Assembly (NCBI GenBank): GCA_947625385.1
Contig: CANQOB010000003.1
Coordinates: 1-64,000, forward strand
Direction of reading: 5' to 3'
Origin: an uncultured Clostridia bacterium
GTDB taxonomy: Bacteria; Bacillota; Clostridia; Christensenellales; Borkfalkiaceae
Length of the DNA stretch: 64,000 nt
Of this stretch, positions 4,688 to 41,715 are shown piece after piece; within the stretch, counting starts at the first letter, position 1; the number at the start of each line of letters is the position of its first letter. The notes beneath the pieces were generated by a model, which was not told the DNA's origin, did no database searches, and saw nothing but the letters and a program-made list of their open reading frames with translations. The translations under genes were made by a program, and so were the position numbers.

Positions 4688-4731
4688 TAGGTTTCGGCAT
4701 TTTTTTCGGAAAAATTTTTCCGAGGGCTTTT

Positions 4732-7422: not shown

Positions 7423-7434
7423 GAGATCCTCCCT

Positions 7435-22381: not shown

Positions 22382-25300
22382 TTATTTCATTCCTTTCGGC
22401 TCATCGTCCTTCGTCTTTCTGCGGCGAATGAAGATGAGAGCGAAAGTCAAAATGATGAATTGAGAAGCGAAGATGCACAAGTACAGCGTGACATCAAGCG
22501 TTCCGTTGACGACGAGGAAGGATTCGTTGACAACGAATGCCTTGACCTCCTCGAGCCCCGTGTAGTCGAGAGTATCGTCTACCGTGATCTTTGCATAGTA
22601 CGTGCTCTTCGAAAGGGCGTTGAGTTCATCCGTCACCTCGAAGAGACAGAGCGCATCGTAGTAGTACTTCACGGTCACTTTGCCGAATTTGGCGGTAGCC
22701 GACAGAAGTTCTGCGTCCGGCGTCTCGCCTTCATTCATGCTTTCGAGCGAGAAGTGTTTGAGCCATTCGTTTTCCGCCTTGCTGATGGTGAAGAACCCTT
22801 TCAGCGGGGTGACGGAGATCTCGTAGTTGTCGTCCGCGTCCTCCCACCTGATGGGATAGACGCCCACATGATAGCCTTCGGCTTTGGTGAGGACGACCCC
22901 GAGCACGAAGTCGGGATTCTCCGCATCCCACGAGGCGTACGTAGAGCCCTCCGCCAACGTGAAGCCGCCCACGATGAGGGCGTTGAACGCATCCTCTTCA
23001 TAGTAGTCGCCGAACGTGCTCTCGAAATCCTTGATGTCGAGCGTGATCTTGCGCTGGTCGACCACATAGGTCCCGTTGCCCTCTTCCTTGTCATCGTTTT
23101 GATAGGTGATCAAGTAGTTCAAGGTGTTGTTGTTCGCTTCCGCATGGATTCCGTAGACCCCCGCATTCGAGCGGTCGGTGACGCCGTCGTAGCTCAGATG
23201 GATGAGGAGCGCCTCATACGGGTTTGCCGTGTGCCAAGGCGCAAGTCCTTCCACCGTCCAGAACGTGCCGGTGAGGTCGTTGTCAACGAGCTCGACGAGT
23301 TCGTTGCCATAGGTGCTGCGCTGCGTATGGATGGTGACGGTGATCGGTCTCGCCACGACCGTCCAAACGAGAACACTGTCATCGAAGTCGATGATATAGT
23401 TGTTGTCGTTATCCACGGCTTTGATCGTGTAGACGCCCACATCGTTTGATTCGGGAAGCGTCCACGTCAGTTTGAGGTCGGCCGCTGTCTCTTCGTAGGC
23501 ATAATCATAGCCCGTGACAGGTTCGATCGTCGAAAGCGCGAACTCATAGAAGGTCGGCGCTCCCATGCCGTCTTGGAAGCTGTAATCGCCGTAGTAGCTC
23601 TCTTTTGTCGGCTGCATCGTCATCTTGATGAGAAGCGGCGAAATGACGTAGGTGCCCGCACCCTGCGGCTCGCTGAGCGGGGTGCCGTCCTCGCCTTCGC
23701 GGAGATAGTCCGCGGGAAGGTCGCCCGTCCAGTCGCCCTCGAAGGTGACGTTGTAGTCCTTGTTCGTCCAAGTGCCGAGGATGTAGTAGCTGTCCGCATC
23801 CTTTTCGTGCCCGTTTCCGACCGTCAGCTCGACTTTGAGATCTGCGTTGGTGTCCCAGCTCGCGATCGGAGTTGCTGCGTCGACAGTAAAGTTGAGCATA
23901 TGCTCGTTGTCTCCGTAACGGATGCTGCCGTCCGCGCCGTAGCTGTTGATGTGAATCGTGATGTTCGAACGCAAAATGGTGAACACGGCATCCGCTACGT
24001 CGCCGTCTGCGTTGAAGAATTCGACATCGTAGTTGGAGCCCGACGCCGTTCCCCTGATTCCGTAAACGCCTGCGTGGGCTTTATCGTCGATGGGAGCACC
24101 GTTCTCGTCGATATAGTCGAGCGTGACGCCGAGGGCGGAGACATAATCCTTTTCACCCAGCCTGTCATACGTCCACGCGTCGGAACCCGTCTTTGCGGGG
24201 TGATCCTCGCCGTAGGTGATCGTGCGGTCGTAGACCGTGACCTTGACCTTCATCTTTTCGATGATCAGCGGCTTTGTGAGCACTTCCGGCAACTTATAGT
24301 TGGCTTCGTCCTCCCCTTTGAGCAGGTTTGTGATGACGACGGAGTACTTGCCGACATTCTTGGGACCATTGGTCTCGGTGCCTTGGTCGTCGTAATAATG
24401 GGAATCGGGTCTCTCCACGCCATCGATCCCGATCACGCCCGTGAACAGCGGCTTGAAGTCGTAAGGGTAGCTGCTGTATATATAGGTGATCGCATCGGCG
24501 CCGTCGTTGGGCTCCTCTTCGTTGGTGTGAAGTTCACGCTCGACGGGCGCCCATTTGATACCGACTTCCTTCTGCTCCACGATGAGGCGGTTTGTGCCCG
24601 TGTTGTCGACGAGGAGATCTTCGTTATAGTTATCCGAATCCATGAAGGCGACGGTAAACCCGCAGCCCGGCTCCGCGACGATGCGCAGCGAGTACGTGCC
24701 TGCCCGCAGCAGTCCGGCGGAGCTCATGGCGCCCGCGTCCACGACCTCGACATGGCAATGGTCGATGATCATCTGTTTGCGCTGCGCGGCATTGAGGTCG
24801 GGATATGCTTCGCTCATTCCGTCCACCGTCGAGATCATCATCATATTGAGAAGGTACGCATTCAGATCTTTGGTGATCTGATATTCCATGATGTCGTGTT
24901 CGGTCCCGAGCGTATAATTGTAGTCCGCATTGCCCTCTTCGATCTTGAGATAGGGGTACTCCTCGCCGTAAGTGAAGGTATGCGGTCCGATCGCCGTGTT
25001 GAGGCTGACTCTCGCGACCACGGAAATGATGCGGTATGTGAGCGTCTCCGTGAGGTCGCGGTGGTTTTTCGCCGTGACGGTGACCGTCATATCCCATTCG
25101 CCCACGCTGTGGACATACCACAAATCGCCGACGCGTTCCACATCCGTCCGTCCGTCGGTATTCGTCGGCTTGGCGTAGGTGATCTGCGCGAGCACGGTTT
25201 CCCCGACTTTGACGTCATAGACGAGCTTCGTATTGTCCGAAAGCTCCTCGTTGAATACGAGTTCGCCCGCCGAGGCGCCCTTGTAGTCGCCGGCGTATGT

Positions 25301-28300
25301 GAGATAGTTTGCCGCGATAGCCATCGGATACCAGCCCGTGGTGGCGTCTTTCACTTCGGCGTCATCCTTTTGACGGTAGGGATACGTGACCTCCCAACCG
25401 GAACCGGAGGCGATGATGTCCGCAGGCTTGACGGTAAAGATGCCCGCCGTCTTGTAGTTGTCATCGCCGTCCCATTCGCCGTAGAACTTCACGTCGTAGC
25501 TCTTCATGAAGGTCATGTCGGCAGCATAGCCGAAGCCCCAGACGCCGACGATGGCATGGGTCCCTTCCGTCGCAAACAACTTCTCGGGGCTCGCGGGAGC
25601 GGCTTTGCCGAGGTAGAAGGTGAGGTAGCCGAGGTCCTGCGTCAGAATGGTGTAGTCCGCCAAGTCGAAGTCGTACGTCCACTGCGCCGCATTGGTCAGC
25701 TTCCTGCCCTCGTCATAGACGGGCGCGGTGAGTTCGATCTTCGAGCCGACATGGATGCCGTCGGTGCCGTAGATCGCATCTGCGACGCCGATTCGGATGG
25801 CAACGGAACGCTTGGTGATCTCATAGTCGCCGCCCTCGCGGTCGCCGGGCTCGTTGCCGCCCTCGGTGACCCAGTTCCTGAACGTCACTTTGTAGTTGGG
25901 GTTGCCGCAGCTGCCCTTGATGACGTTCGTATAGACGCCTGCGGGAGCCGTCTCGTTGACGACGTCGTCGAGGGTGAGCGTGATCTTCAACCCGGAACGG
26001 GTATCGCCGTCCGCATATCCCATATTCTCATCGTTTTTCGTGCCGTAGACCGCCCAGTTATCGCTCAGACCCGAGAGGTTCCGAAGGATGGTCTCGCCGT
26101 AGACGGTGGTCTGACGACCGATGAGCACGATGATAGGACGAGGCATGACGATGTAGTTGCCCGTACCCTCGGTGAAGGTGACGCTGTAATTCGCACTGTT
26201 CGGGACCGCAGTGAGACCGCCTACATAGGTCATGGCATCCCACCACTGTCCGTCTTTCGTCTTGTCCTGTTCCGTGAAGGCAAGCTCGTTGAGCGTGATG
26301 GTGATGCCGAGATCCTTTTCGCTGTCGCCTTTCACGAAACCATCGAGCGCCGTGAAGCCCCACGCTCCTTCGCTTCCCTCGAAGCCGTCCTCTTTCAGCG
26401 TTTCGCCGTAATAGCTCGAGTAGTCGTGCACGCTGACGCGCATCGCACGCTTTTCAATGGTGTGCTTGCCGCTCTGCGCGCTGTTGATGCGGAGAATAAA
26501 GTCGTCATCGAAGTTGAACCTGCCTTCTCCGAGCAACCAATCTGCGTCCTTGCCCGCGTCGGGGTCGAGTTTGACGAGGTAGCTGCCCGCACCGGGATAC
26601 GGCGTCGTGCCCTTTTCGAGTTTGGAAGTCCCATCGCTGTTGAAGAGCGCGAGAAGGTCGAGGACGAATTGATCAAGCTGCGTAACCTTTTCGCCCCTGC
26701 CGAAGTCTGCCGAGAGCACATTGTCGGTATACGTGAAGTGGAACTGCTTCTTGCCCTCCGTGCCGTAGACGGCATCGTCGTCGCCGTAGACGCTCGAGCT
26801 GTCCGCGATGGCGAGTTCGACTTCCCTGCGCTTGATCTCGAAGGCGACATACACGCCCTTATTTCCCATGTAGCGGATACTGTCGCTGGTTTCGTCCTTC
26901 TCTTCGATGAAGTAGTTTTCCGCGTCGGCGCCGAAGAGCCCGTTGGTGCTATCGCTGAACACGTGGACCCAGTACTTGCCGACATGGATGGCGCCCGTAG
27001 CTTCGAACACCGAACCGTTGTTGAAGTTGCCGCCTTCCGATTTGTTGTAACGCACGCTCTCGAACTCCACAGCGTCTCCGTCAAGACGGTTGGAGATGAC
27101 AACGTTTTCCGCCGCTACATTGACGAGGGGGGTGCCGTTGTAGCGCAGGTCGTTGATGGCTTCCTTTGTGGAGATCGTGATCGCGAGCGGCGTCACGGTA
27201 AAGACTTTCCCGCTATACTCGGTGCCGCCGTCCTTAAAGACGATGAAGCTTTCCTGCTCGAAGCCGCTGACTTCCATTTTGTCGATCTTCAGCCCGTAGT
27301 CGCCGACTTTGAGACGGTTCGCACCCGAGTAGTCGCCGTCGATCGCCAGAATGCCGATGCCGAACCCGTAGCTGACAAGGGTATTTGCCTGCTCTTCGTG
27401 AGTTCCCGAGATGCCTTCGACGGTGATCTTTCCTTCGCGGATGAACTTCAAGACCTGTTCGAGGACTTTCTCGGGCGAATAGGCGTCCGCATCGCCGTAG
27501 ACGGCGCTGAACTTCGCCTCGGCTCCGACGGTCAGCTCGATCGCGGTCGCCTTGACGGTGACTTTGAGCGTGATCGCCCACTGGTCGTGGTTGGGCGCAT
27601 CGACGGTCACGGCAATGGTGTAGAGCCCCGCACCTTTGAGACAGTAGCCGGTCTGGAGACCGTTCTCGTCGGTGACGGTATCGTAGGCAGCGCCCGTGCA
27701 GGACGTGAACGTAAACGACGCTTTGGAGGCGTTGAAGCCGTCCTCTTTGTCGATGAACTTGAAGTTCTCCGACGTGAGCGTAATGTCATGAGGATTGTCG
27801 GGCGCGAACACGAGTTCGCGTGTGAACGTGGTGCTGTTCTCCTCGGTGCCGAGCGATTCGGCATTCTTGATCTTGGCATTGGCGATGGTGTACGTCCAGT
27901 CCGCCTTTGCGACGTCCTTTGCGAAGGAGAAGTCCGCGCACACGAGGTCGACGGTGATGACATAGGCGCCCGCATTCTCGGGAATGCCGTCGAAGTCCAT
28001 GGTGTTGAAGCCGACCCAGCTCGGGGCGAAGGCGACTTTGAACGTGTAGAGCAGCGTTTCACCGTCCTTCACCTCGTACGTCGCGACAAGCCCATCGATC
28101 GCGGCTTCGCCCATGGTGCCTTTGGGGACGACGGTAAAGCCCGCCTCCGCGTTGCGGAACGCAACGGAAACGTTGTGCTTCTTGGTGTTATAGACGTTGC
28201 TCGAAACATCGGCAGGCTCATCGTCGATGGTCACAGAGAGCGAACCCGTGATGATGGCGGGCGTGATGACGTAGGCTTCCTGCCCCCATTCGCCCTTCTC

Positions 28301-31300
28301 CGTGTCAAACGTGTACGTTGCGGATTCGTGCGTGACGAACTTGAAGTTGGACAGGTCGCGCTGCGCTCCCGTAACGTCGTCACTCACATCCTTCAACGTG
28401 ACTTTTACGTTGTACGCGACAGGTTTGCGGTCGCCGTTCGTCTTGACATGCGTCGGGATATCCGCCAAGTCGTCATAGGTGATGTCGTAGTCCTTGGGCA
28501 GGACGGTAGAATTCGCCGAATTGACGAACGTGACCGTCGCGGGACGCTCCTCTCCCGTGTAGCTTGCGCCGGGGATGGCGGCGAGGTAGATCTCCGCCTT
28601 TTCGACGGTGAAGGTGAAGGTCGCCGTGTAGTCGCCCGTCTTTCCCGTAAATCCGTCTTTGAACTTGAAGTTGGGATCATTGCCGACGCCCGTCAGATTG
28701 TGCAGGGTGACGGTGACGGTGTATTCGCCCGCGTTGTGCGGCGCCTTGACATCCTGTCCTTGGAAGGTGTATTTGATGGTGTAGTCGGAGGAGTTCTCGT
28801 TGGTGTTGTACGCGGGGGTGATGCCCGTGCCGCTCTCGTTCGTGAATGTGAAAGAGCGGGACTGGTCCTGCGCGTTGTACGGGAGCGAAGTCTTATCGAT
28901 CGTCGCCGTGACCTCTGCGGGCAGGATATCATAGGACAGGTTGACCGACCCCTGATAGTTGTTCATGCCCGTGACCATGGTATCGACGTGACCGACGTTG
29001 ATATCCGACGTATTCGAGATAGAGTAGTCGCCGACCGTATCCGCCGCCGTCTTGCGCTTAAGTTCGGTCTTGGCGGCGCCCTCCGTCAGGGCGATGAGGA
29101 CATGGAAGTCATCGGTCTGCGGTCTGCCCGTGTAAATCTTCTGGTTGACTTCGTATGCAAGCGTCTTGCCGTCCGCAAGGAATACATCCCCTTGCCCGAT
29201 GGTGCGCTGCGTGATGGCATAGGTGAGCGAGATGGTGTATACCCCCGAGCCGAAGCAGAAGTTGCCGCCGAGGACTTCGGTAGAATTCCCGTCCTCATCG
29301 AAGATGTAGAATTTCAGCGTTACGGTGTAGGTACCCGCATTCGTGTAGCCCTGCCAAGCATCCTTCGCCCAGCCGTCGTAGCTCGCTTCGCGCACCGCAT
29401 AGACGTTGCCGCCCGTGCCTTCCGTTTGCACATCGCGCAATGTGACGCTGACTTCGTCGGTGTAGACCTTGTATTCGTGCGCGACGCCGTCATAGACGAG
29501 CGAGTTCTCGCCTTTTTGGACGAAGCCGTCCTTTTCAAATCCGAGGAACGGGGAGAGCACGACGGGCGTGACGCGGAAGTTCCTCGTCGCATGGTAGTCA
29601 CTGTCGCCTTCTCCGCGACCCTCTGTTGCGAAGATGAAGTTCTGGGTGAGCTGCATGGAGACAGTATAGGCGCCCGCGAAGTACGGCTTATGATCGGCGC
29701 CGAATCTCTCGTTGCCCGTTTTCTCCGTATCGTTGACGGAGTATGTTGCGGTGAAGTCGCCGAGGCTGAGGTCGGGCAGGACTGCGCCCGTGCCGTCTCC
29801 CGCGTACACGAAGGTGTAGTTTGCATCCTGCGGTCCGTCATTGTAGACGACATTGCCGACTTCTTGGAGCTTGACGACGTTGGGAATGATATCGAATACC
29901 AGCGTGACATACACGTTGTTCTCGTCAAGGACAGCCTTGCGGTAACCGTTCGTGTCCGTCGGGTTCTTTCCGAGGTCGATTTCTTGGAGCTCCACGCTGT
30001 CGTCCGTCTTTGTGCCGCCCGCGTATACATTCCGGATGGTGTAGTTGTTGTAGTGCTTCACGCCGGGATAGTGCCCGGTCTCTTCCCTGCTCAGGCGGAA
30101 GGTCACCGAATATCTGCCGACATCGTAAATCGCCTTGACGGGGTTGTCTCTGTCCCATGTCTCTTCCGTGTCGCTCACACTCGTGGCTTTGTAGTACTCG
30201 ACGGAGTACTGCGCGCCCTGCGGCACGGCGCCGCCCTCTGCGGCGTCGAGAGAGATAGAGCCGAAGCTCCCCGTCCAGTCATTGCGGTTGTAGTAGAACT
30301 TGTTGACGTACGCGCCGTCGTTTTTGAGCGTGGCGGCGGAGAAGAACACGTCGATGACGGAAGGCGTAATGGAGAAGTCGACATAGACTCCCGTCTCCGT
30401 CTTATCGCGATACTCGCTCGTCAGCTGCACATGGCTGCCGTTTCTCGGTCCCGCATAGACATTGCGGAGCTTATAGTTCTTGTTCACGTTCTCAGCCGCG
30501 AGGAGTTCGAAGTGCAAGAAGTACTTGCCCGCGTCAAAGACTTCATTGTTCTTCGCCTTCGTGCCCGCATGGGCTGCGACATTGTCGTAGTAGAACGTGA
30601 CGGAGTACCCTTGGGAAGGGGTGATGTTCCCATCGTTGGCGAAGTCGACGGAGCCGAGCTTCGAGGACTGGTTGGTACCGTCATAGACGAAGCTGCTCGT
30701 AAACTCGCTGCCGCTTACGAACCCGTTGAGATAGAGGTCGATCTCGGCAGGCGTGACCTTAAAGGCAAGGCTGAACTTTTTGAGGGTCCCGTCGTCAAGC
30801 TTGCCTTCGATCGGATGATAGGCGTCGCCCGCATTTTCCTTCACGTCGAAGGTATCGTCCGTGCCCGCATAGATGGCAGTGATGACGTAGTTGCCCGCGT
30901 CGTCCGTGAGGGTGAATACCAGGCGGTAGTCGCCGACGTCGGTGGCGCTATCCACGGCGTCCGAATCTTTCAGCATGAAGGTGACCGTGTACTCACTGTT
31001 GGTGGGCACGATGTCATCCTTGCCCGAGAGCGTGACCGCATTGAGCACGCTCGCCCAGCTCGACTTGTTGAAGCCGAATTCGTTGACGAACGCTCCCTCT
31101 GCCGACCTGAACTGTTCGGGCACATGGACCTGAATCTCCGCAGGCGTGATCTTGAACTGCACGGAGAACGCCGTGAACGGTTCGCTTGCGGTCTTTACAT
31201 AGCCCTTTTCGGCATTTTCGGACAGCTCGACCGCGTTGCTGACTTCGCTCAATGTATTCGACGGCGTACCCGCATAGACCTTGACGATCTCGAAGTTCTT

Positions 31301-34300
31301 TGCGCCGTCGCTGACAAGCGTGATGACGAGCTTGTAGGTGCCGACATTGCGCACGGTGGCGGCGTCGGTTTCCGTGTCCTTGCCGACCGACTTCAAGACG
31401 GCGGTATACTCGCCGTTCTGCGGGAAGATCCCGTTGCGGAGCTCATTCTTGAACTGTACGCTGTTCAGCGTGTTCGTCCAGTCGTTCTTGTTGAAGCCGA
31501 AGCTGTTGACGAAACCTTCCCCGCTTCGGAACGCCTCGGACAGATAGACCTCGATTTGGGCGGGCGTGATGTCGAACTTCACGGAGAAGTCCTCCATGCT
31601 GCTGCCAAAGTAGCCCGCGCCGTCCGCGCTTTCGGCTTTGGCGAGCGTAACGCTCGTGTCGTTGCCCGCGTAGATCGCCGTGACGTTGTAGTTGTTCGCC
31701 GCCTCATCACTACTGAATTTGAAGATGAGGTAGTACTTGCCGACGTTGGTGACGGTTGTGGTGTCCTCGCCCGCAAGCTCCGTCTTGAAGCTGACCGTGT
31801 AGTCGGTCCCGTTCGGGACGACGTTGTTGGCGTTCTTGATAGAGACGACGGAGAGCACGGCATGGAGGTTCTGCCTCGTGTAGACGAAGCTGTTGACGAA
31901 CGCTCCCTTGTCCTTGAAGCGGTCGGCGAGGTGAATCTCGATGTTCGCAGGGGTGACGGTGAAGGCGACGTCAAACGCGCGCATGTCGCCGTCGTCCGTC
32001 GTCGTGTAGTTGTCGGAGTTCGTGAGCTCAACGTAGTCGGAGCCCGCTGACCCGTCCTTGCCCGCGCGGACATGGGTGATGACAAAGTTCTGCGCGTCGT
32101 CGCCGATGAGCCCGAATTTGAGCGTGTAGCTGCCCGCGTTGAGGACCTGCTCGGTCGCGTCCGCGTCCTTCAAGAAGGTCACCTGATAGTCGACGTTTAC
32201 GGTGCCGGGCACAACGCCGCCACTCAGTTCGTTCTTGAAGGTGACGGGGTTGAGGCGGGTCCGCCAATCCGACCTGTCATAGCCGAAACTGTTGTTGAAC
32301 GCGCTGTCCGACTTGAACGGGCTGGACAGGTACACCTCGATCTTCGCCGTCTCGACGACAAAGTGAACGGAGATATTTTTCAGCGACTCGTCGTCCGCAT
32401 AGTAGCCGTTTCCCTCGGAGGTTTCAACCTTCGGGACTTTATCGTTCTCGGTCGAGCCCGAGCCGACATAGACACCCGTAACTTGGTAATTGCCTTTCTC
32501 GTCGATCAGTCTGAGTACAAGGTAGTAGTGGTCCGCATTGCGGGCAGAGTTCGTTTTGTGCGCTTCAGCGGCATCGCTCTCGGTGTAGAATTCTACCGTA
32601 TATTCGCCCGTGACGGGGGTAATACCGCCCTCGCCCGAGAGAGTAACGGAGTTGAGCACAGTCGTGTAATCCGTCGCAGTATACGGGAAGGTATTGGTGA
32701 ATCTGCCGTCCGCGCCCTTGAACTGGTCAGACAAGTGAATTTGGATTTGGGCAGGCGTGACGGTGATCGCAAACTTGTAGGCGAAGAGGAACGGCTCATC
32801 GGGGAACATGTCAGCGATAGTTCCCGCTTCTCGGTGCTCTTTGTAGAACACAAAGTTGCTGTACTCCTTGTTGTCGCCGCTCTGGAAGCGAATCCAAACG
32901 AAGTAACTGCCGCTGTCCGTAACGCCGCCTTCGATCGCCGTCGCATCGTCCTTGGGCTTGCTATTTGCCTCGTCCCAATCCGCTGCCTTGTAGTATTCGA
33001 TGACATAGTCCGAGCTGTTGGGCAAAGTCGAGGTATCGCAGAGGTTTTTGAACGCAAACGAAACCGTCTGTGCCGTCTTGTTATAGCTGAACGTGAGGGA
33101 GCCCTTATCTTCCGTGCTCACATCCGGCTCAAAGGTCTCCGAATTGCCGCTGTTGTCGCTTGCCGTGACATTGACGATGGCAGGCAAGATCAAGAAGCCG
33201 CCTTCGAGCGAGCCCGTGAAGTTGTTGACGCCCGTCATCGTGACCTTCGCCTCACCGGCATTCAAGTTGTCGGTATAGGTGGCTTCAAACGCCGACGCAT
33301 AATGGACCTCGTCCTTATCCCAAGCACCCGACCTGAGGGCAAGGTCGCCGGTGAAGATGTCCCCGTCGGACAGCGTGATGGTAGGCGTGATCGCCGACCC
33401 CGTGTAGTGGTAGCCGACCGCCGCGCTACCCGCATGGTCTTTGAGCGTTTCGTCGTCCTGATAGGTAGGCGTGAAGCTGCTGATGTCGCGCCGTTCGATC
33501 GTGTAGTTGCGCAGCACCGAGTAGCTGTTGTCCGCGAAGCGGAAGTCGCCGCCATCCCCGTGAAGGGTGAGCGTGACCGTGTAGGAGCCCGCATTCTTGA
33601 AGCCGTTGGAGTTGTCAAGCGTCTTGCCCGCCCAGCCGTCGTAGCCGTAGGTGACCCAAACTTCGCCGATTCCGATGCTATCGCCGCTTGTGGCAAGCGT
33701 GGGCAGGACTTTTTCGTCCGTACTCACAGAGTTGGTGAGAACGATTCCGTTCCCTATGGTCGGCTTGTGCTCTTGCCTATCGTAAGTAACGGAAGTGTCA
33801 TTCAGCGAGAAGCTGATCTGCGCGGGGGTGATGTTGTAAGTAAAGGGAATCGAGAGGTGTTTCTCATCCGCCCCCGAAGTGGTGATATAGAAGCTCTCCT
33901 CGCTGAACTTCACCGTGACGGTGTAAGTCGCGACATGGGTGAAGAAGCCAACCTTCGCAAATTCCTCGAAGGTGTAATCTTTCTTGGCGCCGTATTCGAC
34001 CGTATCGTCGGAAGTCGTGGGCGTGTAGTGGACAGTCGCGGTATTGGTAGCCCCATCGCCCTTCTTGAAGATGACATCGACGGTGAGGTCGTCCGCCTGA
34101 ATTGCCTCGGAGGACGCGTATTGGAACATCGCCGAGACCCAATTCGTGAGAGCGATGCCCTCCGCACCCGCGGCGTGGAAGTGGTCCTTGGCGTTGTAGA
34201 CGTCGGTCGCAAACAGCTGCGTGACGGTGATGTCCACGCGGTTGATGAGGAAGGGCGCGAGGATGACGGAAGCATCCTCCCCTTCGCCGAGGCGCTGTGT

Positions 34301-37300
34301 AAGAAGCGTCGCATCCGTCGCCGTCTCGCTGTGCGCAAAGTGAGGCTGCGTAATCGACCGCGTTTCGAACTTGAAGTTCTTTGCACCCGCTTCGGTCAGA
34401 GAAATTTTGACGGAATAGAGTTCCGCATAGAACGGATTGCCGTTCTCGTCGCACGAATTCTTATCAGGAGTAATGACATTGTTGTCAACGTATTCGACCT
34501 TGAATTCGTCCGCGAGCACGGGAACACCCGCATTTTGCCCGTTGTGCGTAGGTACAGCCGCATTGTTGGACTGCTTGTTCGAGAAAACGGGCGTCTGCGG
34601 CTGCGCCGCGCGGTTGTAGACGCTGTCCTTGAACGCATCGAGGGTGATGGTCGCCTTTTGGATGACATAGTCGCCGGGCGCCGTCCAGCTGCCTTCCGTG
34701 GGATAGGACGAGCCGAGGTTGTTTCCGTCGCGGACGGTATAGTTGTAGGTGTTCTCCTGCGAACCTTCGCACGAAGGATAGTTGTCCTCGCCCGTGGAGC
34801 CGTCCTTGTAGCCCGTGATGAGGCTGCCCGACGCGTCCACCGTGAGCGAGAAGCAATAGTTGTGCGACGAAAGTTGGACTTTGACCGTGTAGTTGCCCGC
34901 ATCGATCTCGGATTCCTTCCCGTTGATGGTCACCGTGTACTCGCTGCCGAGCTGCGGCACCACGTTTTGGAACGAACGCAGTGTCGGATTCTTCTCATAG
35001 GTGATATTGGTGAACGTCAAAGTCGGCGTGTGCGCCGCGCGGTTGTAAATTTCATTATTGTTGGCAAACTTATATGAGACGACCGCGGGCAGAATGGTGT
35101 GCGAGCCCGTCGCCGTCTTTTTGTAAGCCTCCGTGCCGACAGGCGTAAAGTACGACCCGCCCCCCGTGCCGCTTACAAATTGATAGTTATCGCTTCCCAA
35201 CACGATCTTGACGTCATAGACGCCCGCCTCGATGGGAACAGTCCCGTCCGTAATGTCTGCGGGAGACGCCGCCGCGCCGAATCCTGCCGCCGTACGCGTG
35301 CGCGCCTTGTATGTAATGGAGTACACCGAGGCATCGGGCTGCGGCTTCTTGAATTCTCCGTTGCCGACAAGAATCTTGGGGTCGGCGTTCAGATATTTAC
35401 TGTAAGCGTCGTCGGTCTCGGCGTTGGTGTACGTTACATTGACGCTGTGCGCCGTCTTATCGTACTGCGGCACAGCACCCACGCCCTGCGGCACAGCACC
35501 CACGCCCGCGTACTGCACGGCGATCTGCGCCGGGGTGATGGTGAAGTCGAGCGTCAGCGAGCCCGTATAGTTCCCCTGCCCGTTCAGCGTGATGCGCGCC
35601 GAGTTCGAAGCCGTCGAGGCATTCGAATTGTTCATGTACGAAATCGTGTAGTCCTCGCCATCGCCATTCAGCGTGAGCGGGGTGCCGTAGGCGGTCCTGC
35701 CCGTCGTGCGCTCAACGCTCTCCGCATAGTAGAACGGCTGATATTGGACGGTCACGCCCGGTGTATACTGCCAGTTGTTGCCCGCGAACGGGTAGGAAAT
35801 GCCCGTTTTAACATTCCCGCCCTCGCCGAGCGAAAGCGTCGTCGTGCCGCCCTCGATCGTAGAACTCCAATGCTTGAAGCTGTCGATGCCGACCTTGGTG
35901 ATATCCCCCGCGAGTTCGTTGAGGTTCTTTTGGTTGATGGTGACGTCGAGGAAGCTCGTCGAGCTGATGACGAAGTTCTGCGACGTATTGAACGCCTGCA
36001 CCTGCTTGCCGTCTTTCGGCTGATAGGTGATAATCCACGTCGCACCCTCTTTTTCGGGTTCGTCCGTGACGCGCGGCGTGGTCACAACAGTTTTGCCTGT
36101 CGCGAAAGCGTCGGCGTCGACCGTGGACAGGTGATAGTTGCCTTGATCCGCGCTCTTCGTCTTGAAGGCATACAGTCCGATACCGAAACTGATTTCGTGC
36201 TGCTTAAATTCCTCGTTAGAATAGTTGACCGAGACACTTCCGAGCGTGAAACGATTCTTATGGTAGGTCGCATCGTCGTAATTGTGCAACGTGTTGTCTT
36301 TGCCCCAAAGGTCGGTCAAATCGCGAGTTACTTCCGCCCCGCCGTCATAGGCAGAGAATGTTCCGGTCGTCGTGTAACTATCTGCATGTTGGTTTGTGAT
36401 GAGCTCGCTGGGCGTCGTGATGCCGTCCTGTACAAGGAAGAAGATGGATTCATACCAAGCGTCGTCCTCGCCCTTGCCGGAACGCGGCGGCAAATATCTC
36501 GCTCTTTCGTAGCTGCTGCCGTCATAAGTATAGGAAAGGCTGCCCGTGACGGTCACTTCCACGGGTTTGATGGTGTACGTTCCGATGTAGACGCCCTTGA
36601 AATTGGCAACAGGGGTGTATTTTGTCGCGGAGCTGTTAGCACCGTTGTTGGCATCTTCGGGCATGACGCCGCGGAAGTGGACGAGAATCCAGTATTCCCC
36701 TGCGTCCACGGGTCGGAACTTGCTCTCGAGAAGCTGATTGCCGTTCTTGTCCGTTCCGTTGTATTTTGTTTCCGCGTCCCATTTCGTCCAGTTGCCGGTT
36801 TTTGCTTCGATGTCGTCTGCCGTGACTTCGACATCCTCACGATTGGAATATTTCTCTTTGGAGAGATAGCGCACCTGCACGACGGTATCGTCGGTCATGT
36901 CGGGATAGTTGTAGAGCCCGTTGTCCGCGCCGGAAGAGTGATAGCGACCCGAAATCGTGGGCTCGTCATCCGTCGCATTGTAGACGCGGTCGTCGAGGTT
37001 GATACTGCCCTCCCCGCTGTCGGGCACGGATTCCGTCGTCCAGTTCTCAATTTCAGCGGGCTGGATGAAGAAATAGTATGCGAACTCGTACACAACATCT
37101 CTGCCCTGCTCGTCTTTTTGCGACGTTTCAGCCAAACGCTGTTTTTCGTTCGAAGTGAAGATGTAGTCGTTATACGGCTTGCCGCGCGGGGTGAAATCAT
37201 CCTTCCCCTCGTCGCCCTCTCTCCACAACATCGCATTCAGCGAGACATGCACGACGTACTTGCCCGCGTCCTTGACGCCCCAACGCGAGGAGCCGTCGGA

Positions 37301-40300
37301 GTTATCTTCGATACCGACTTCCGTCGCATTTGCACCGCGTGCAAGATAGTCGTCGAACTGATAATATTTGACGGTGACGTTGGGGTCGAGCTCGGGGTCA
37401 TTGCCCGCCTCATCGTTGTTGTTGAAGTAGAGAATCTGCTTGGTCGTATAGACGGCGTCCTTGAAGGTGTAGCCGAAGTAGCCTTCTACATCCTCTTTGA
37501 CGCAGGCATTGTTTTCGAGCCATACGGAGACGGAGACGCGCTGAATGGGCAAGTGCATCTCGCTCTGGAAGGCGATGTTGTTCTTCATATAGTCGACGGA
37601 GGGCGCAACCGCTCCATCCGCGACGACCTCATGCGCGCCGCGCACCTCATAGAATCCCGCGTGCAGGAAGTAGTTGGTCTTTTCGAGCTCCGACTGCGAC
37701 TTGTCATTGAGTTCGCGCCAGTAATATTCGAGGTCGAAGTCAACTGCGCCGAAGTCAATCTCCACGTCCTTCCCGAAGAAGTCCGTATTGGCGTAGACAA
37801 ACTTCATGACCGCGCCGGTGAAGCCCTTGTATTTGCCCTCTTTGCCCTCTCGATATGCCTTATCGAGCACGAAATCATACGCCGTGCCGCGATAATAAAG
37901 CGCGCCAGCAATATAATCTCTAAGTTCCTGTTCACTGGGAATTTTATTATTAGCGAAAGGATTTCCTTTGTCGTGCCAAGTGGGTTCACCGTTCTTGACT
38001 TCGTATGCAGAGACACCTACACCGAGCTGGTTAATCGTAATGGTAAAAGAAGTATTGCTGTATGCTCCACTGGTGACACGGAAGGAATAATCGCCCGCAT
38101 AGATGAGAGCCTTCTCTCCGCCCTCTTCGATAAGTTCGCTCTCTATATTGTTCTTTTCGAGCAGATAGTGGAAAGAATAGTTAACACCCTGGCCGGCAGT
38201 ATCCAAGTGGCTGATATCCCATGTTTGAACGACAGCCTCTCCGCTCAGAGCCTCAACTTTGGTAACTTCGTACATCTTATGGTCGAAACGAAGCTGGCTC
38301 TCTGTCCACAAGAAAGAGGTGATTTCTGCGCTCGATTTGCCAATGTCGGCATCGTCCCACTTGAAAACATGCTGACCCGCATTAAATGAGCCGTGCTCGG
38401 GTTTCCCGTCCGCAACGATTATAAACTCTTTGCCACCGTACAGTGTACCTGTGATGCGCCATGTGAGTCCCGTCATCGCGGGCTTGGTCTTATTGGAGAG
38501 AGCTGCTTCGCCTGTGCCGCCGGTGCTCTCCTGATTGTCGCTCCAAGCAACGTAGTAGTCTTCATCGTCCGAAGTAAAATAACGGTTGGGGTCGACGTTC
38601 GTTTCGGAATATTCTGAGGTGAAACTGCCATTAGGCCAGCTCGCTACGTCCTGCAACGTAATACCGATTTTGGCGTTGATTCCGTTTTGGAACATGCTTC
38701 CGCCGATAACAATTTTTGCACGTTTATCGCCAGAGCATGCAAGGAACAGATTGCTTGTGCTACCGCCCGTGAGTTCTTTGTTTTTCCAAATGACGCCGCC
38801 GATGAGGTTGTTTTCCGCATTGCGCCCCTCGCCGTACGTCCAGTCTTTTACCACTGTGCCGTCCGGTCGCGACGGCCCATTGTCTCCCGCCGCGATTTTG
38901 CTATCGACCCTCGAGCCGCCAATGCCCTTGCCGCCCCCCACCGAACTCTTGTCAACTTCGGTGGTATTATGCGAATAGAACGATATATGGTAAATGTTGT
39001 TCTTGGAACTGGTATGTGTCCACAGCGTTGTACCGTCATATGTGAAATCTCTATGATAATACTGGGCAGCCAATCCGCTGACGTTATCGGTAACAATAAG
39101 CGCACCCGCGAACTTGAACGTCGTCGCTTCTGCGTCGACATAAATACCGCCACCGTAAATGCCCGCCTTGTTGAAGCGAATCGTTGTGTTTTCGAGCAGA
39201 CCTTGGCTCGAGGGGCCGATATGGACGCCGCCGCCGTAAGAACCCGCAATGTTATAGGTGATATCGCCATCATGAATGTTGACATACGAGGTGTCGCGCA
39301 GGGCAATGCCGCCGCCGTACCCCGCAGCGCGGTTATAGGAAATGACTCCGTCGTACACTGTGAAGACGGAGCGGGAAGCACTGGCAAGATACACGCCGCC
39401 GCCATAGAGCGTGGCGTAGTTGCCGATGATATAGCCGTTGTAGATGATCATGGCGGCATTGCTGACCAGATAGATCGCACCGCCGAACTGCGCCTGGCTG
39501 TCGCTGAGCGTGCCGCTGTGCAGAATAAACTCCGACCGCGGCTCTCCGTGTACGCAGCCCCCCTTCCCTTCATTATTGGTATAGCCCCATGTCGCCCAAG
39601 GGGATTCTACGCGCAATGTCTCCCAATGATCCTCTGAAAGGTCTGCCATGCGCTTGGTACCGGTAGACCAACCGTTTTCGTCGATACCCCAGTCGACATA
39701 AGAAACATATTTTTGGTCGGCGCAACCGCCCATGATTGTGCCCTCATGGTTGGTCTTGTAACCTTTAACGGGGGTTGTGGTATCGTTTGCGGGAATCGTC
39801 TCACCGCGTTCATTCAACCGATTGATACGGCCGTCGGAGGCGCGCTCGTAGGCGGTAGAATCCACGACCTCGAGACGGGCTTTCGGCTGAACTTCAATCA
39901 CGTTCCCGTAGTAGCAATAGGGATTGCCGTACATGTATTGATTTTTTAACGGGGTATCGGTGCCGTTCACCCATGCGTGAGCATCATTTTGGATAATACC
40001 GAGCGGATATTCATACCGCTCTTTGAGAATGCTCCCGCTGTTTTGAATCTCGTCGTAGTCGTCATCGGCCAAATCACGGGAAATGGTGTGGCCGTTGAGG
40101 TCGAGCACGATATACGCGCCCGTCGGCACGTTGATGCGTCCGAAAGAGAAGGGCGAAGTCACATTTTCATGAATGACGTGAGGCGTCACCCCATCACTGC
40201 ACATCGTACTGGCCGCATCGTCGGCATTGATGCAGAGGTCGTATGAAGCGTAATATTTATGCGTGACGTCGTCTTGATAGCCATCTTCGAACGAGGTATC

Positions 40301-41305
40301 GGTGATTCGATTGGTGAGCGTCTCGGGCATTGAATTTTGTTTGCCCTCTGCATTGACGCCCGCATCTGCGCTTTGGTTGAACTGCACTGTAACGCTATCA
40401 CTGTAGCCCTGCCGTGCCTCATTCCAATAGCCGTTTACACCGCTGAAGTTTTCTTCCGTGTCTGTCCAGTTGAATGTCGTAGTCCAGAGACTGAGCTTAG
40501 AATCGAGTTTTTGGGTCTGATAAGCCGCCGGCGTCGCAGTTGTCGAATAAAAATTCTCGGGAGTAAAAAGAATATTCGTCTGAATGGGCTTGGCATACCA
40601 ATCGCAGTTAAGTTTTACGGTGATATACTTCCCCGCGTATGTCCATTGTCCTTCAGCTTTTGTGACACGATCCGAATACGGGACATCGTTGTCGATTAAA
40701 TACGGGTCGGCAAAGTAGTTGCCTTGCGCAATAGAACCGTCTGCAAGCGTCTGAACTTCCCCTGTCAAAAGGTCTTTGGATTTATCCTGTGTGCTATCGA
40801 ACGGGCTATCCGCACTTTCGCCGAGCGCGAAGGCAATGGCTTCCGCCCAAACGCGTGCCGCATCTTCCGGGTTGTCGATTGTAAAGACCTTTTCGGTGCC
40901 CTTCTCGTCCTTATAGGGCTCCGCTTGCACCAACTTGTGGTCGCGTTCGGTCATCGTAAAATTCACGCCGTTGTATTCAGCTGAATCTGCTCCGTCCAAC
41001 CCGATTTGCGACATCCAAGAACTCTTCTTTTTTGCCCAATCGCCATTTTTGGCAGCAACGTCATCCGCCCAAGTCGAACTCTTGACGTCGACCTTGGTAA
41101 GGCCATAGTACCATTCACCATGTTTGCCGATGTTGGAATTGATCAAAGGATTGGCGGAAACATCCGCGGCGTACGTCTGCACCCCGGAAGATACGGGAAA
41201 ATACAAAAACAAGCCGACTGCAAGACAGACGGCAAATGCCGGGGTCAAACACCCCAATAGCCATTTTTTCACCCTCGAATATGTACCCGAATATACTTTC
41301 TTCAT
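22382..41305 (-). CDS. Giant (6,307-residue) MBG/Ig-like repeat surface protein
   Basis: An uninterrupted 18.9-kb frame. ATG 41305 (MKKVYSGTYSRVKKW) follows GCAGGAGAATAT and gives a signal peptide ending near VQTYA-AD; the track start 72 codons earlier lies in the mRNA leader. Residues about 530-760 form a right-handed beta-helix with five GG(A/G)(I/V)-type rungs (FGGAIYL, YGGGVYL, YGGGIAL, YGGGVHI, YGGGIYV). The bulk is Ig-like: modules with ITPAQI/YN-K-x-H starts, a seven-fold repeat (about 2840-3770), then around a dozen MBG-like modules (TVYGE..., ITYGED..., TYGNELV) up to about 6200. The end is one transmembrane helix (CIFASQFIILTFALIFI) plus RRRKTKDDEPKGMK; there is no LPxTG. Likely an extended, type I membrane-anchored adhesin or cell-surface filament; ligand unknown. 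First gene of the operon with the 889-residue protein. Confidence 0.92.
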   Translation of the reverse strand: MKKVYSGTYSRVKKWLLGCLTPAFAVCLAVGLFLYFPVSSGVQTYAADVSANPLINSNIGKHGEWYYGLTKVDVKSSTWADDVAAKNGDWAKKKSSWMSQIGLDGADSAEYNGVNFTMTERDHKLVQAEPYKDEKGTEKVFTIDNPEDAARVWAEAIAFALGESADSPFDSTQDKSKDLLTGEVQTLADGSIAQGNYFADPYLIDNDVPYSDRVTKAEGQWTYAGKYITVKLNCDWYAKPIQTNILFTPENFYSTTATPAAYQTQKLDSKLSLWTTTFNWTDTEENFSGVNGYWNEARQGYSDSVTVQFNQSADAGVNAEGKQNSMPETLTNRITDTSFEDGYQDDVTHKYYASYDLCINADDAASTMCSDGVTPHVIHENVTSPFSFGRINVPTGAYIVLDLNGHTISRDLADDDYDEIQNSGSILKERYEYPLGIIQNDAHAWVNGTDTPLKNQYMYGNPYCYYGNVIEVQPKARLEVVDSTAYERASDGRINRLNERGETIPANDTTTPVKGYKTNHEGTIMGGCADQKYVSYVDWGIDENGWSTGTKRMADLSEDHWETLRVESPWATWGYTNNEGKGGCVHGEPRSEFILHSGTLSDSQAQFGGAIYLVSNAAMIIYNGYIIGNYATLYGGGVYLASASRSVFTVYDGVISYNRAAGYGGGIALRDTSYVNIHDGDITYNIAGSYGGGVHIGPSSQGLLENTTIRFNKAGIYGGGIYVDAEATTFKFAGALIVTDNVSGLAAQYYHRDFTYDGTTLWTHTSSKNNIYHISFYSHNTTEVDKSSVGGGKGIGGSRVDSKIAAGDNGPSRPDGTVVKDWTYGEGRNAENNLIGGVIWKNKELTGGSTSNLFLACSGDKRAKIVIGGSMFQNGINAKIGITLQDVASWPNGSFTSEYSETNVDPNRYFTSDDEDYYVAWSDNQESTGGTGEAALSNKTKPAMTGLTWRITGTLYGGKEFIIVADGKPEHGSFNAGQHVFKWDDADIGKSSAEITSFLWTESQLRFDHKMYEVTKVEALSGEAVVQTWDISHLDTAGQGVNYSFHYLLEKNNIESELIEEGGEKALIYAGDYSFRVTSGAYSNTSFTITINQLGVGVSAYEVKNGEPTWHDKGNPFANNKIPSEQELRDYIAGALYYRGTAYDFVLDKAYREGKEGKYKGFTGAVMKFVYANTDFFGKDVEIDFGAVDFDLEYYWRELNDKSQSELEKTNYFLHAGFYEVRGAHEVVADGAVAPSVDYMKNNIAFQSEMHLPIQRVSVSVWLENNACVKEDVEGYFGYTFKDAVYTTKQILYFNNNDEAGNDPELDPNVTVKYYQFDDYLARGANATEVGIEDNSDGSSRWGVKDAGKYVVHVSLNAMLWREGDEGKDDFTPRGKPYNDYIFTSNEKQRLAETSQKDEQGRDVVYEFAYYFFIQPAEIENWTTESVPDSGEGSINLDDRVYNATDDEPTISGRYHSSGADNGLYNYPDMTDDTVVQVRYLSKEKYSNREDVEVTADDIEAKTGNWTKWDAETKYNGTDKNGNQLLESKFRPVDAGEYWILVHFRGVMPEDANNGANSSATKYTPVANFKGVYIGTYTIKPVEVTVTGSLSYTYDGSSYERARYLPPRSGKGEDDAWYESIFFLVQDGITTPSELITNQHADSYTTTGTFSAYDGGAEVTRDLTDLWGKDNTLHNYDDATYHKNRFTLGSVSVNYSNEEFKQHEISFGIGLYAFKTKSADQGNYHLSTVDADAFATGKTVVTTPRVTDEPEKEGATWIITYQPKDGKQVQAFNTSQNFVISSTSFLDVTINQKNLNELAGDITKVGIDSFKHWSSTIEGGTTTLSLGEGGNVKTGISYPFAGNNWQYTPGVTVQYQPFYYAESVERTTGRTAYGTPLTLNGDGEDYTISYMNNSNASTASNSARITLNGQGNYTGSLTLDFTITPAQIAVQYAGVGAVPQGVGAVPQYDKTAHSVNVTYTNAETDDAYSKYLNADPKILVGNGEFKKPQPDASVYSITYKARTRTAAGFGAAASPADITDGTVPIEAGVYDVKIVLGSDNYQFVSGTGGGSYFTPVGTEAYKKTATGSHTILPAVVSYKFANNNEIYNRAAHTPTLTFTNITYEKNPTLRSFQNVVPQLGSEYTVTINGKESEIDAGNYTVKVQLSSHNYCFSLTVDASGSLITGYKDGSTGEDNYPSCEGSQENTYNYTVRDGNNLGSSYPTEGSWTAPGDYVIQKATITLDAFKDSVYNRAAQPQTPVFSNKQSNNAAVPTHNGQNAGVPVLADEFKVEYVDNNVITPDKNSCDENGNPFYAELYSVKISLTEAGAKNFKFETRSITQPHFAHSETATDATLLTQRLGEGEDASVILAPFLINRVDITVTQLFATDVYNAKDHFHAAGAEGIALTNWVSAMFQYASSEAIQADDLTVDVIFKKGDGATNTATVHYTPTTSDDTVEYGAKKDYTFEEFAKVGFFTHVATYTVTVKFSEESFYITTSGADEKHLSIPFTYNITPAQISFSLNDTSVTYDRQEHKPTIGNGIVLTNSVSTDEKVLPTLATSGDSIGIGEVWVTYGYDGWAGKTLDNSNGFKNAGSYTVTLTLHGDGGDFRFADNSYSVLRNYTIERRDISSFTPTYQDDETLKDHAGSAAVGYHYTGSAITPTITLSDGDIFTGDLALRSGAWDKDEVHYASAFEATYTDNLNAGEAKVTMTGVNNFTGSLEGGFLILPAIVNVTASDNSGNSETFEPDVSTEDKGSLTFSYNKTAQTVSFAFKNLCDTSTLPNSSDYVIEYYKAADWDEANSKPKDDATAIEGGVTDSGSYFVWIRFQSGDNKEYSNFVFYKEHREAGTIADMFPDEPFLFAYKFAITVTPAQIQIHLSDQFKGADGRFTNTFPYTATDYTTVLNSVTLSGEGGITPVTGEYTVEFYTESDAAEAHKTNSARNADHYYLVLRLIDEKGNYQVTGVYVGSGSTENDKVPKVETSEGNGYYADDESLKNISVHFVVETAKIEVYLSSPFKSDSAFNNSFGYDRSDWRTRLNPVTFKNELSGGVVPGTVNVDYQVTFLKDADATEQVLNAGSYTLKFGLIGDDAQNFVITHVRAGKDGSAGSDYVELTNSDNYTTTDDGDMRAFDVAFTVTPANIEIHLADRFKDKGAFVNSFVYTRQNLHAVLSVVSIKNANNVVPNGTDYTVSFKTELAGEDTTTVTNVGKYYLIFKFSSDEAANNYNVTAIYAGNDTSVTLAKAESADGAGYFGSSMEDFSVKFDITPAQIEVYLSEAFRSGEGFVNSFGFNKNDWTNTLNSVQFKNELRNGIFPQNGEYTAVLKSVGKDTETDAATVRNVGTYKLVITLVSDGAKNFEIVKVYAGTPSNTLSEVSNAVELSENAEKGYVKTASEPFTAFSVQFKITPAEIQVHVPEQFRSAEGAFVNEFGFNKSSWASVLNAVTLSGKDDIVPTNSEYTVTFMLKDSDAVDSATDVGDYRLVFTLTDDAGNYVITAIYAGTDDTFDVKENAGDAYHPIEGKLDDGTLKKFSLAFKVTPAEIDLYLNGFVSGSEFTSSFVYDGTNQSSKLGSVDFANDGNITPSQGYSVTFYYDNVAAHAGTKAKNNEVFDAGKYFLHFELLAAENVNKNYKLRNVYAGPRNGSHVQLTSEYRDKTETGVYVDFSITPSVIDVFFSAATLKNDGAYVNKFYYNRNDWTGSFGSISLDAAEGGAVPQGAQYSVEYYKATSVSDTEETWDRDNPVKAIYDVGRYSVTFRLSREETGHYPGVKHYNNYTIRNVYAGGTKTDDSVELQEIDLGKNPTDTNGYRKAVLDENNVYVTLVFDIIPNVVKLQEVGNVVYNDGPQDANYTFVYAGDGTGAVLPDLSLGDFTATYSVNDTEKTGNERFGADHKPYFAGAYTVSMQLTQNFIFATEGRGEGDSDYHATRNFRVTPVVLSPFLGFEKDGFVQKGENSLVYDGVAHEYKVYTDEVSVTLRDVQTEGTGGNVYAVREASYDGWAKDAWQGYTNAGTYTVTLKFYIFDEDGNSTEVLGGNFCFGSGVYTISLTYAITQRTIGQGDVFLADGKTLAYEVNQKIYTGRPQTDDFHVLIALTEGAAKTELKRKTAADTVGDYSISNTSDINVGHVDTMVTGMNNYQGSVNLSYDILPAEVTATIDKTSLPYNAQDQSRSFTFTNESGTGITPAYNTNENSSDYTIKYTFQGQDVKAPHNAGEYTVTVTLHNLTGVGNDPNFKFKDGFTGKTGDYTATFTFTVEKAEIYLAAIPGASYTGEERPATVTFVNSANSTVLPKDYDITYDDLADIPTHVKTNGDRKPVAYNVKVTLKDVSDDVTGAQRDLSNFKFVTHESATYTFDTEKGEWGQEAYVITPAIITGSLSVTIDDEPADVSSNVYNTKKHNVSVAFRNAEAGFTVVPKGTMGEAAIDGLVATYEVKDGETLLYTFKVAFAPSWVGFNTMDFDGIPENAGAYVITVDLVCADFSFAKDVAKADWTYTIANAKIKNAESLGTEENSTTFTRELVFAPDNPHDITLTSENFKFIDKEDGFNASKASFTFTSCTGAAYDTVTDENGLQTGYCLKGAGLYTIAVTVDAPNHDQWAITLKVTVKATAIELTVGAEAKFSAVYGDADAYSPEKVLEQVLKFIREGKITVEGISGTHEEQANTLVSYGFGIGILAIDGDYSGANRLKVGDYGLKIDKMEVSGFEQESFIVFKDGGTEYSGKVFTVTPLAITISTKEAINDLRYNGTPLVNVAAENVVISNRLDGDAVEFESVRYNKSEGGNFNNGSVFEATGAIHVGKYWVHVFSDSTNGLFGADAENYFIEEKDETSDSIRYMGNKGVYVAFEIKRREVELAIADSSSVYGDDDAVYGTEGKKQFHFTYTDNVLSADFGRGEKVTQLDQFVLDLLALFNSDGTSKLEKGTTPYPGAGSYLVKLDPDAGKDADWLLGEGRFNFDDDFILRINSAQSGKHTIEKRAMRVSVHDYSSYYGETLKEDGFEGSEGAWGFTALDGFVKGDSEKDLGITITLNELAFTEQDKTKDGQWWDAMTYVGGLTAVPNSANYSVTFTEGTGNYIVMPRPIIVLIGRQTTVYGETILRNLSGLSDNWAVYGTKNDENMGYADGDTRSGLKITLTLDDVVNETAPAGVYTNVIKGSCGNPNYKVTFRNWVTEGGNEPGDREGGDYEITKRSVAIRIGVADAIYGTDGIHVGSKIELTAPVYDEGRKLTNAAQWTYDFDLADYTILTQDLGYLTFYLGKAAPASPEKLFATEGTHAIVGVWGFGYAADMTFMKSYDVKFYGEWDGDDNYKTAGIFTVKPADIIASGSGWEVTYPYRQKDDAEVKDATTGWYPMAIAANYLTYAGDYKGASAGELVFNEELSDNTKLVYDVKVGETVLAQITYAKPTNTDGRTDVERVGDLWYVHSVGEWDMTVTVTAKNHRDLTETLTYRIISVVARVSLNTAIGPHTFTYGEEYPYLKIEEGNADYNYTLGTEHDIMEYQITKDLNAYLLNMMMISTVDGMSEAYPDLNAAQRKQMIIDHCHVEVVDAGAMSSAGLLRAGTYSLRIVAEPGCGFTVAFMDSDNYNEDLLVDNTGTNRLIVEQKEVGIKWAPVERELHTNEEEPNDGADAITYIYSSYPYDFKPLFTGVIGIDGVERPDSHYYDDQGTETNGPKNVGKYSVVITNLLKGEDEANYKLPEVLTKPLIIEKMKVKVTVYDRTITYGEDHPAKTGSDAWTYDRLGEKDYVSALGVTLDYIDENGAPIDDKAHAGVYGIRGTASGSNYDVEFFNADGDVADAVFTILRSNITIHINSYGADGSIRYGDNEHMLNFTVDAATPIASWDTNADLKVELTVGNGHEKDADSYYILGTWTNKDYNVTFEGDWTGDLPADYLREGEDGTPLSEPQGAGTYVISPLLIKMTMQPTKESYYGDYSFQDGMGAPTFYEFALSTIEPVTGYDYAYEETAADLKLTWTLPESNDVGVYTIKAVDNDNNYIIDFDDSVLVWTVVARPITVTIHTQRSTYGNELVELVDNDLTGTFWTVEGLAPWHTANPYEALLIHLSYDGVTDRSNAGVYGIHAEANNNTLNYLITYQNDDKEEGNGTYVVDQRKITLDIKDFESTFGDYYEEDAFNALIVGGFTLAEGSTYASWDAENPDFVLGVVLTKAEGYHVGVYPIRWEDADDNYEISVTPLKGFFTISKAENEWLKHFSLESMNEGETPDAELLSATAKFGKVTVKYYYDALCLFEVTDELNALSKSTYYAKITVDDTLDYTGLEEVKAFVVNESFLVVNGTLDVTLYLCIFASQFIILTFALIFIRRRKTKDDEPKGMK
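30000..32780 (-). repeat. Seven tandem ~130-residue repeats inside the giant gene
   Basis: Each unit opens with a ITPA(Q/E/N)I-x-(V/I)-(Y/H)-L motif, continues F-x-(N/S)-F-x-(Y/F)...W...L-x-V, and closes N(Y/F)-x-(V/I)-x-x-(V/I)-(Y/R)-AG. DNA identity between units is modest, so the expansion is old rather than recent. Boundaries are approximate. Confidence 0.75.
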
Positions 41306-41549
41306 ATATTCTCCTGCCATAGGTCCCCTCCGCGCTCTCGCTTTCGCGGCTTGCGCCGCAACGGTCAAAGGTTTTTTCCCGTGCGCACGCACGGGAAAAG
41401 GGGCATGCCCCTTTCTGCCGCTCGTTCCCCTCTGCCGAAAAATGCCCGCCTCCCCTCTTCGGAAAAGCGGGCGACATTGGTCCGTTTCATCTTCCCCCGA
41501 AAAGGCGACTACGCACAGCACAAAGGCACGAGTTTCTTATTTTGATTTT
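41306..41549 (-). other. Long structured 5' leader of the giant gene
   Basis: Predicted mRNA leader of about 240 nt. It contains a stem CCCGTGC-GCAC-GCACGGG (41379-41396) flanked by runs of T and A, the palindrome GGGGCATGCCCC (41400-41411) and a CCCGCxTCCCC.../GCGGG pairing at about 41446-41473. I could not match it to a known riboswitch class. An in-frame extension of the giant gene stays open through most of it. Confidence 0.5.
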
Positions 41550-41578
41550 ATTATATTGGTGAACGTTTATTTTGTCAA
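41550..41578 (-). promoter_or_regulatory. Promoter of the giant surface operon
   Basis: Perfect consensus on the minus strand: TTGACA, 17 bp, TATAAT. Confidence 0.85.
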
Positions 41579-41672
41579 GTCTTTTCGACAAGTTTTTTGA
41601 ATTTTCCTGAAATTCTCAAAATTGGCTCTAAATATCAAAACGGTACGACAAATTATGACAAAATACCCCCCC

Positions 41673-41700
41673 CGTGAACAAAATTCACATTTTGTTCACG
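41673..41700 (-). terminator. Hairpin after copA
   Basis: 11-bp stem CGTGAACAAAA with complement and 6-nt loop, 15 nt past the copA stop. On the minus strand it is followed by eight G and TATTTTG rather than a clean T-run, so termination strength is uncertain. Confidence 0.5.
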
Positions 41701-41715
41701 ATACAGGTCGTAATT

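Follow-up and report, generated by a model that had tools for sequence, protein, structure and literature searches.

Within the window, that is, the whole 64,000-nucleotide stretch of an uncultured Clostridia contig analysed here, an 18.9-kb gene for a giant surface protein is followed by a gene for a second membrane protein (Table 1), and it is moderately probable that both products form a two-part surface adhesin, composed of a giant stalk with an exchangeable tip and a bitopic partner reaching the cytoplasm. The giant would quite likely serve mainly adhesion or display, its sticky tip probably being held at a long distance from the cell, and the partner would probably link the stalk with the cytoplasmic side. 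Giant adhesins were already known; the conserved partner appears to be new. The architecture, the gene pairing, a conserved glutamine, the absence of a detected sortase and the mosaic stalk are read directly from the sequences, and ligand binding, contact between the transmembrane (TM) helices and the cytosolic role are put forward conditionally.

Table 1. Features of the giant gene, its promoter region and the partner gene, in positions of the window.
Feature	Position	Strand	Basis or remark
Giant surface protein gene	22382..41305	(-)	6,307 aa; homologous giants in 29 other genus genomes (C-terminal profile)
Possible weaker second promoter, TTGTTC (41681-41676)-18-CATAAT (41657-41652)	41652..41681	(-)	G8 in spacer
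Poly-G tract (G8)	41666..41673	(-)	Spacer of the possible second promoter, ~90 bp further upstream
Consensus promoter TTGACA-17-TATAAT	41550..41578	(-)	12/12 matches
Terminator-like leader hairpin between promoter and start	41444..41472	(-)	Not above shuffle expectation
Signal peptide region	41165..41305	(-)	Residues 1-47; hydropathy, ...TYAAD end; aligned in relatives
Conserved N-terminal region, no Pfam name	39506..41164	(-)	Residues 48-600; alignment of relatives
Right-handed beta-helix, presumed tip	39092..39484	(-)	Residues 608-738; PF13229 E=2.6e-6
Stalk	22772..37546	(-)	Residues 1254-6178; holds most of the 36 MBG/Ig-like modules
Module pair folded with AlphaFold2	30758..31570	(-)	Residues 3246-3516; all beta, pLDDT 92.8
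Conserved last module (FG..YYYDE)	22502..22768	(-)	Residues 6180-6268; alignment of relatives; 48/201 family genomes
C-terminal TM helix with central Gln	22427..22486	(-)	Residues 6274-6293
Short basic cytoplasmic tail	22385..22426	(-)	Residues 6294-6307
Partner gene	19687..22356	(-)	889 aa; begins 25 bp past the giant's stop
Partner TM helix with Gln29	22225..22284	(-)	Predicted N-out/C-in; charge bias; model helix 18-49
Five Big_3 domains of partner	20839..22170	(-)	Residues 63-506; PF07523 E=2e-20; model
Partner conserved cytosolic domain, no Pfam family	20257..20736	(-)	Residues 541-700; alignment; model
15-bp in-frame tandem repeat, acidic P/V/E linker/tail of partner	19803..20127	(-)	TRF, 21.9 copies

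The giant gene is a single open frame without interruption, as the first-pass annotation had claimed, and the frame stays open on to position 41521. An AGGAG sequence precedes the ATG at 41305, with which the starts of two relatives (G097 and G079) align, and an ATG at 41320 is a possible alternative start. The GC3 lies between 0.59 and 0.85 over the full length of the gene, which, together with the ends and stalk common to the relatives, is more than chance, judging from composition and alignment. Complete giant frames found elsewhere in the genus comprise 4,255, 4,997, 4,996, 5,646, 6,059, 6,107, 6,509, 7,525 and 11,411 residues, and their N-terminal regions and C-terminal ends can be aligned, none of the relatives having the conserved internal stop that had been raised as evidence against one long protein. 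Two relatives split between contigs would reach ~6,300 and ~7,250 residues, being joined as proteins solely for counting. More giant frames of the genus were seen in G068:C11 (9,443 aa), G059:C10 (10,048 aa), G081:C6 (11,419 aa) and G083:C2 (8,916 aa). The last module and TM helix were detected by the C-terminal profile in 30/103 genus genomes, and a more distant form is present in the wider family (Table 1). The named relatives, one weak match excepted, are Clostridia MAGs from the rabbit gut ('Lapin'), so the source bacterium probably shares this host. The window also contains a starch cluster (1936-8937) with two lipoproteins, a pullulanase-like alpha-amylase bearing PUD and CBM48, and a 4-alpha-glucanotransferase.

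Regarding the architecture, the earlier proposal of a surface protein ordered as tip, stalk and anchor, for which adhesion is a plausible role, is supported; hydropathy, PF13229 and the sequence confirm the signal peptide, the beta-helix, the one C-terminal TM anchor with a basic tail and the lack of LPxTG. The signal peptide has a hydrophobic stretch at residues 15-34. The profile match of the beta-helix lies barely above the cut-off of PF13229, and neither ligand-binding residues nor a homologue of known function were found for the tip. In the stalk, Pfam recognised just two stretches near the C-end, both MBG_2 (5e-14), so the earlier claim of dozens of Ig/MBG-like modules was put to the test with profiles made from repeats of the giant itself. 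These recovered 36 modules that do not overlap and that fall into two types; the first, ~130 residues long, starts with ITPA.I and the second carries a YG motif. Aligned module pairs of the family match Big_3_5, MBG and MBG_3. The array is not uniformly MBG, having two module types, and most modules are divergent. The YDG-type MBG family PF18657 had no match in the genome of the source bacterium, but neither did the control give any, so that this search carries no information.

Profile searches and structure prediction had both been proposed for this protein; the former gave the PF13229, MBG_2, Big_3_5, MBG and MBG_3 matches, and the latter was run for residues 3246-3516, where AlphaFold2 returned two adjacent modules (pTM 0.84). 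A sequence search of the PDB with the module, tip and partner-domain profiles gave no relevant match.

At the C-end, RRRK directly follows the TM helix and no LPxTG-like motif precedes it, the sole similar string in the giant being VPDSG at residue 1427. No match to the sortase profile PF04203 was found in the genome, nor any above the cut-off in 41 genus genomes (this one and 40 others), the controls from Bacillus subtilis, Corynebacterium glutamicum and Lactococcus lactis being positive. The lack of LPxTG is therefore expected, and a TM anchor is the normal solution in this lineage. The plain membrane anchor, which had been called unusual, is indeed present, and its oddity has a simple explanation in a genus without a detected sortase.

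In the proposed mechanism, the giant would be exported by Sec and its C-terminal TM helix would keep it anchored in the membrane, with about 36 stiff beta modules holding the N-terminal beta-helix tip well beyond the wall; at an estimated 4 nm or so per module, the stalk would reach roughly 150 nm if extended. The tip may bind a ligand; the most likely candidates are glycans or glycoproteins belonging to host mucus, to plant fibre or to other cells. Encoded in the same operon, the partner would adjoin the TM helix of the giant, where the glutamines of both helices, lying at a like depth, could pair, and it would place its Big_3 domains and a lineage-specific domain in the cytoplasm, either bracing the stalk against pull or relaying a contact signal.

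The first reading of the locus had overlooked both the promoter region and the partner that is conserved downstream. No terminator-like site separates the giant and partner genes. Among the genus giants found with the C-terminal profile and inspected downstream, a co-oriented one-TM partner directly follows 20 of the 27 that could be assessed (G000, G039, G046, G050, G056, G059 with a GTG start, G060, G061, G063, G067, G068, G070, G073, G079, G083, G084, G087, G094, G097 and G100), G043, G077 and G080 being left out of the count. The spacing is mostly 14-38 bp, with an 11-bp overlap in G083 and about 60 bp in G059. A glutamine occupies one position in 19/19 tabulated partner TM helices, as well as in a twentieth, that of G059. 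Most giant TM helices also carry a glutamine; in three its place is taken by Glu/Asp or a similar group, and those of G060 and G083 lack a polar residue. As both helices run N-out and the glutamine sits ~10 residues past an acidic residue in giant and partner alike, the two glutamines would lie at a like depth, and from this we infer that the helices pair in the membrane. The idea is weakened by the G060 and G083 giants, which have a partner but no polar TM residue. A physical coupling of partner and giant is rather probable.

It is also a real, if doubtful, possibility that the giant alone is a membrane-anchored adhesin and that the partner is co-transcribed for another task, such as export help or envelope upkeep. 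Seven giants (G074, G081, G088, G089, G095, G096 and G101) have no partner, so it is not obligatory, and partner relatives in G049, G050, G069 and G084 (L030, L031, L029 and L028) share their operons with genes for a response regulator, a histidine-kinase-like protein and a solute-binding lipoprotein, so the family is not specific to giants. However, the pairing extends over strongly diverged giants with tight spacing, and the same genome encodes a 2,034-aa protein (C22; L113:1414-7527) with a signal peptide, MBG-like repeats, a TM helix, an acidic P/E linker and, at its end, the partner domain, in this order, which amounts to a giant joined to its partner as a single polypeptide. Behind large surface proteins without a partner in G088 and G095 (L138 and L141), a small Cys/Asn-rich protein (MCNSCNSCNSC...) was observed.

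Returning to the two-part adhesin, the orientation of the partner is predicted as N-out/C-in from the charge bias around its TM helix, as all homologues with this helix have an acidic or neutral N flank with 0-1 positive residues and a C flank with 4-6 Lys/Arg. Consequently, the Big_3 domains, which are usually extracellular, would be cytosolic here, a predicted placement based on the charge rule and on soluble and fused relatives. A soluble 717-aa protein of the same genome ends in the conserved domain of the partner, for which reason the domain is taken as cytosolic, and the fused C22 protein also supports this placement. The domain, found in 5/245 sampled genomes of the class, all five belonging to the same taxonomic order, had no significant Pfam match; its model has pLDDT values mostly of 84-93 as far as residue 656. 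Foldseek with the partner model says nothing on this domain, because Ig/Big_3 domains dominate the matches. The role of the partner leans slightly to signalling over holding, because of the family members in signalling operons.

A bolder and rather unlikely version would be a long-reach receptor, in which force or ligand binding at the tip is transmitted across the membrane by the TM pair and reaches the Big_3 chain and lineage-specific domain in the cytosol, with poly-G promoters switching the system on and off. The consensus promoter of the giant has counterparts at a like place in G073, G097 and G079, and tracts at the place of the G8 of the possible second promoter are found in the same genomes (G9, G8 and G10, respectively); in G070 (G9), G068 (G10) and G056 (G9), it is the stretch from TTGACA to the -10 box itself that holds the tract. 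In total, seven giants of this group have a G8-G10 tract upstream, and the G046 contig starts within such a tract. A palindrome, CGTGAACAAAAT-GTGA-ATTTTGTTCACG, at 41673-41701 overlaps the possible second promoter and could be an operator. The leader hairpin could be an attenuator; the leader had no match in Rfam, and the hairpin does not recur elsewhere in the window.

The pattern TTGAC..G7..TANNNT occurs in 56/61 genus genomes, often ahead of lipoprotein genes, and in the genome of the source bacterium it has 29 matches (overlaps counted); the reversed control had a single match there, and a version with C7 substituted for G7 had 0. Of the 15 readable poly-G sites of this genome, 13 precede members of a single paralogous lipoprotein family at a distance of 49-65 bp, including the window copy at 54073-55953. 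This family (MNTKKWLALGLSVALA..CAP) is encoded there and in at least 12 other places of the genome (L172-L197), under poly-G promoters that are almost identical; BspA-type LRR are present in the window copy, and a second poly-G promoter tract of the window lies at 56027-56034. In other genomes the tract has 7-11 G, and 18/29 readable sites precede a signal-peptide-like start, a raw count without a background rate. These sites suggest candidate contingency promoters and phase variation, a form of switching used by some mucosal pathogens. The near-uniform G8 within the genome partly argues against frequent switching, and the shared ancestry of the lipoprotein paralogues explains part of the pattern. 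No direct literature precedent for poly-G promoters in Clostridia was found under partial journal coverage; their position beside surface genes would suggest large-scale contingency switching in uncultured gut Clostridia.

It seems improbable that the giant is a structural envelope protein, either S-layer-like or a wall-spanning scaffold, instead of an adhesin. S-layer Ig domains (Sap) are the nearest PDB folds of the module pair in Foldseek, not significantly so (E 0.015; all E>0.01), but Pfam and NCBIfam gave no match to SLH or another wall-binding domain, the protein occurs in fewer than a third of the genus genomes, and a mosaic tip and stalk are unlike a housekeeping lattice. When the closest relative was recorded per 200-residue window of the protein, residues 1-1250 were nearest to G070 (mostly 48-77%), those around 1300-1600 to G073 or G068, around 1900-2300 to G079, 2400-2700 to G068 (70-86%), 3600-4000 to G097 (74-89%), 4600-5200 to G073 and 5600-5700 to G079. 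The partner is closest to that of G079 (85%), with just 52% identity to that of G070. This mosaic fits recombinational exchange of tip and stalk segments among relatives.

A predation or cell-contact killing filament, an idea of the first-pass annotation prompted by the length of the giant, is highly improbable and was rejected, as Pfam and NCBIfam found no lytic, protease, nuclease or toxin domain in it and the weak module fold matches to GhpA of Aureispira are not significant (E 0.02-0.2, TM about 0.15). Least credible of all is an assembly fusion or collapse, since, despite a fragmented assembly of 63 contigs and contig breaks inside the giant gene in several relatives, other assemblies have frames as long with the same ends, the flanks are conserved (an upstream CopA-type ATPase in G097, G068 and G070, and the downstream partner) and the internal repeat search found no near-identical long repeats, the longest direct repeat spanning 57 bp and its copies agreeing at no more than 72%; an assembly artefact is thus an unlikely source of the giant frame.

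Considering the adhesin with its partner as a whole, a gut lineage without a detected sortase would keep giant stalks in the membrane, repeatedly paired with a bitopic protein reaching the cytoplasm. This pairing offers a testable route by which a Gram-positive-type cell could hold or sense, from within, a contact made at the distant tip, and the work on the partner names a lineage-specific cytosolic domain for study.

Giant adhesins are known in several phyla and are usually single proteins fixed by sortase, wall-binding domains or the outer membrane. A direct precedent for MBG-domain giants or Christensenellales giants was not found in the literature under partial journal coverage. Chlamydial Pmp proteins are outer-membrane autotransporters; Chlam_PMP repeats match the beta-helix of three relatives of the giant, but no autotransporter domain is present here. 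GhpA of Aureispira is likewise a giant stalked surface protein, although from a different phylum, with insignificant fold matches and no sign of predation genes here. The adhesin of Mobiluncus mulieris, with 7,651 residues, a giant Ig-like stalk and an N-terminal adhesion region, has an LPxTG wall anchor, a thioester tip and ester and isopeptide cross-links (PMC10619420); it resembles the present protein in its stalk and differs from it in that a TM anchor and a beta-helix are found here, without sortase. The Giant1-4 proteins of Apilactobacillus kunkeei, a gut Firmicute with a small genome, are exported proteins of 3,000-8,000 aa with an N-terminal beta-solenoid tip on an alpha-helical repeat rod, a C-terminal SH3b-like domain and loose attachment, and they undergo tip and intragenic exchange among relatives (PMC12863079). 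They share with the present giant the size, the export, the N-terminal beta-solenoid, the repeat rod and the exchange of tips, whereas here the rod is made of beta modules and, instead of an SH3b-like C-end, there are a TM anchor and a partner gene.
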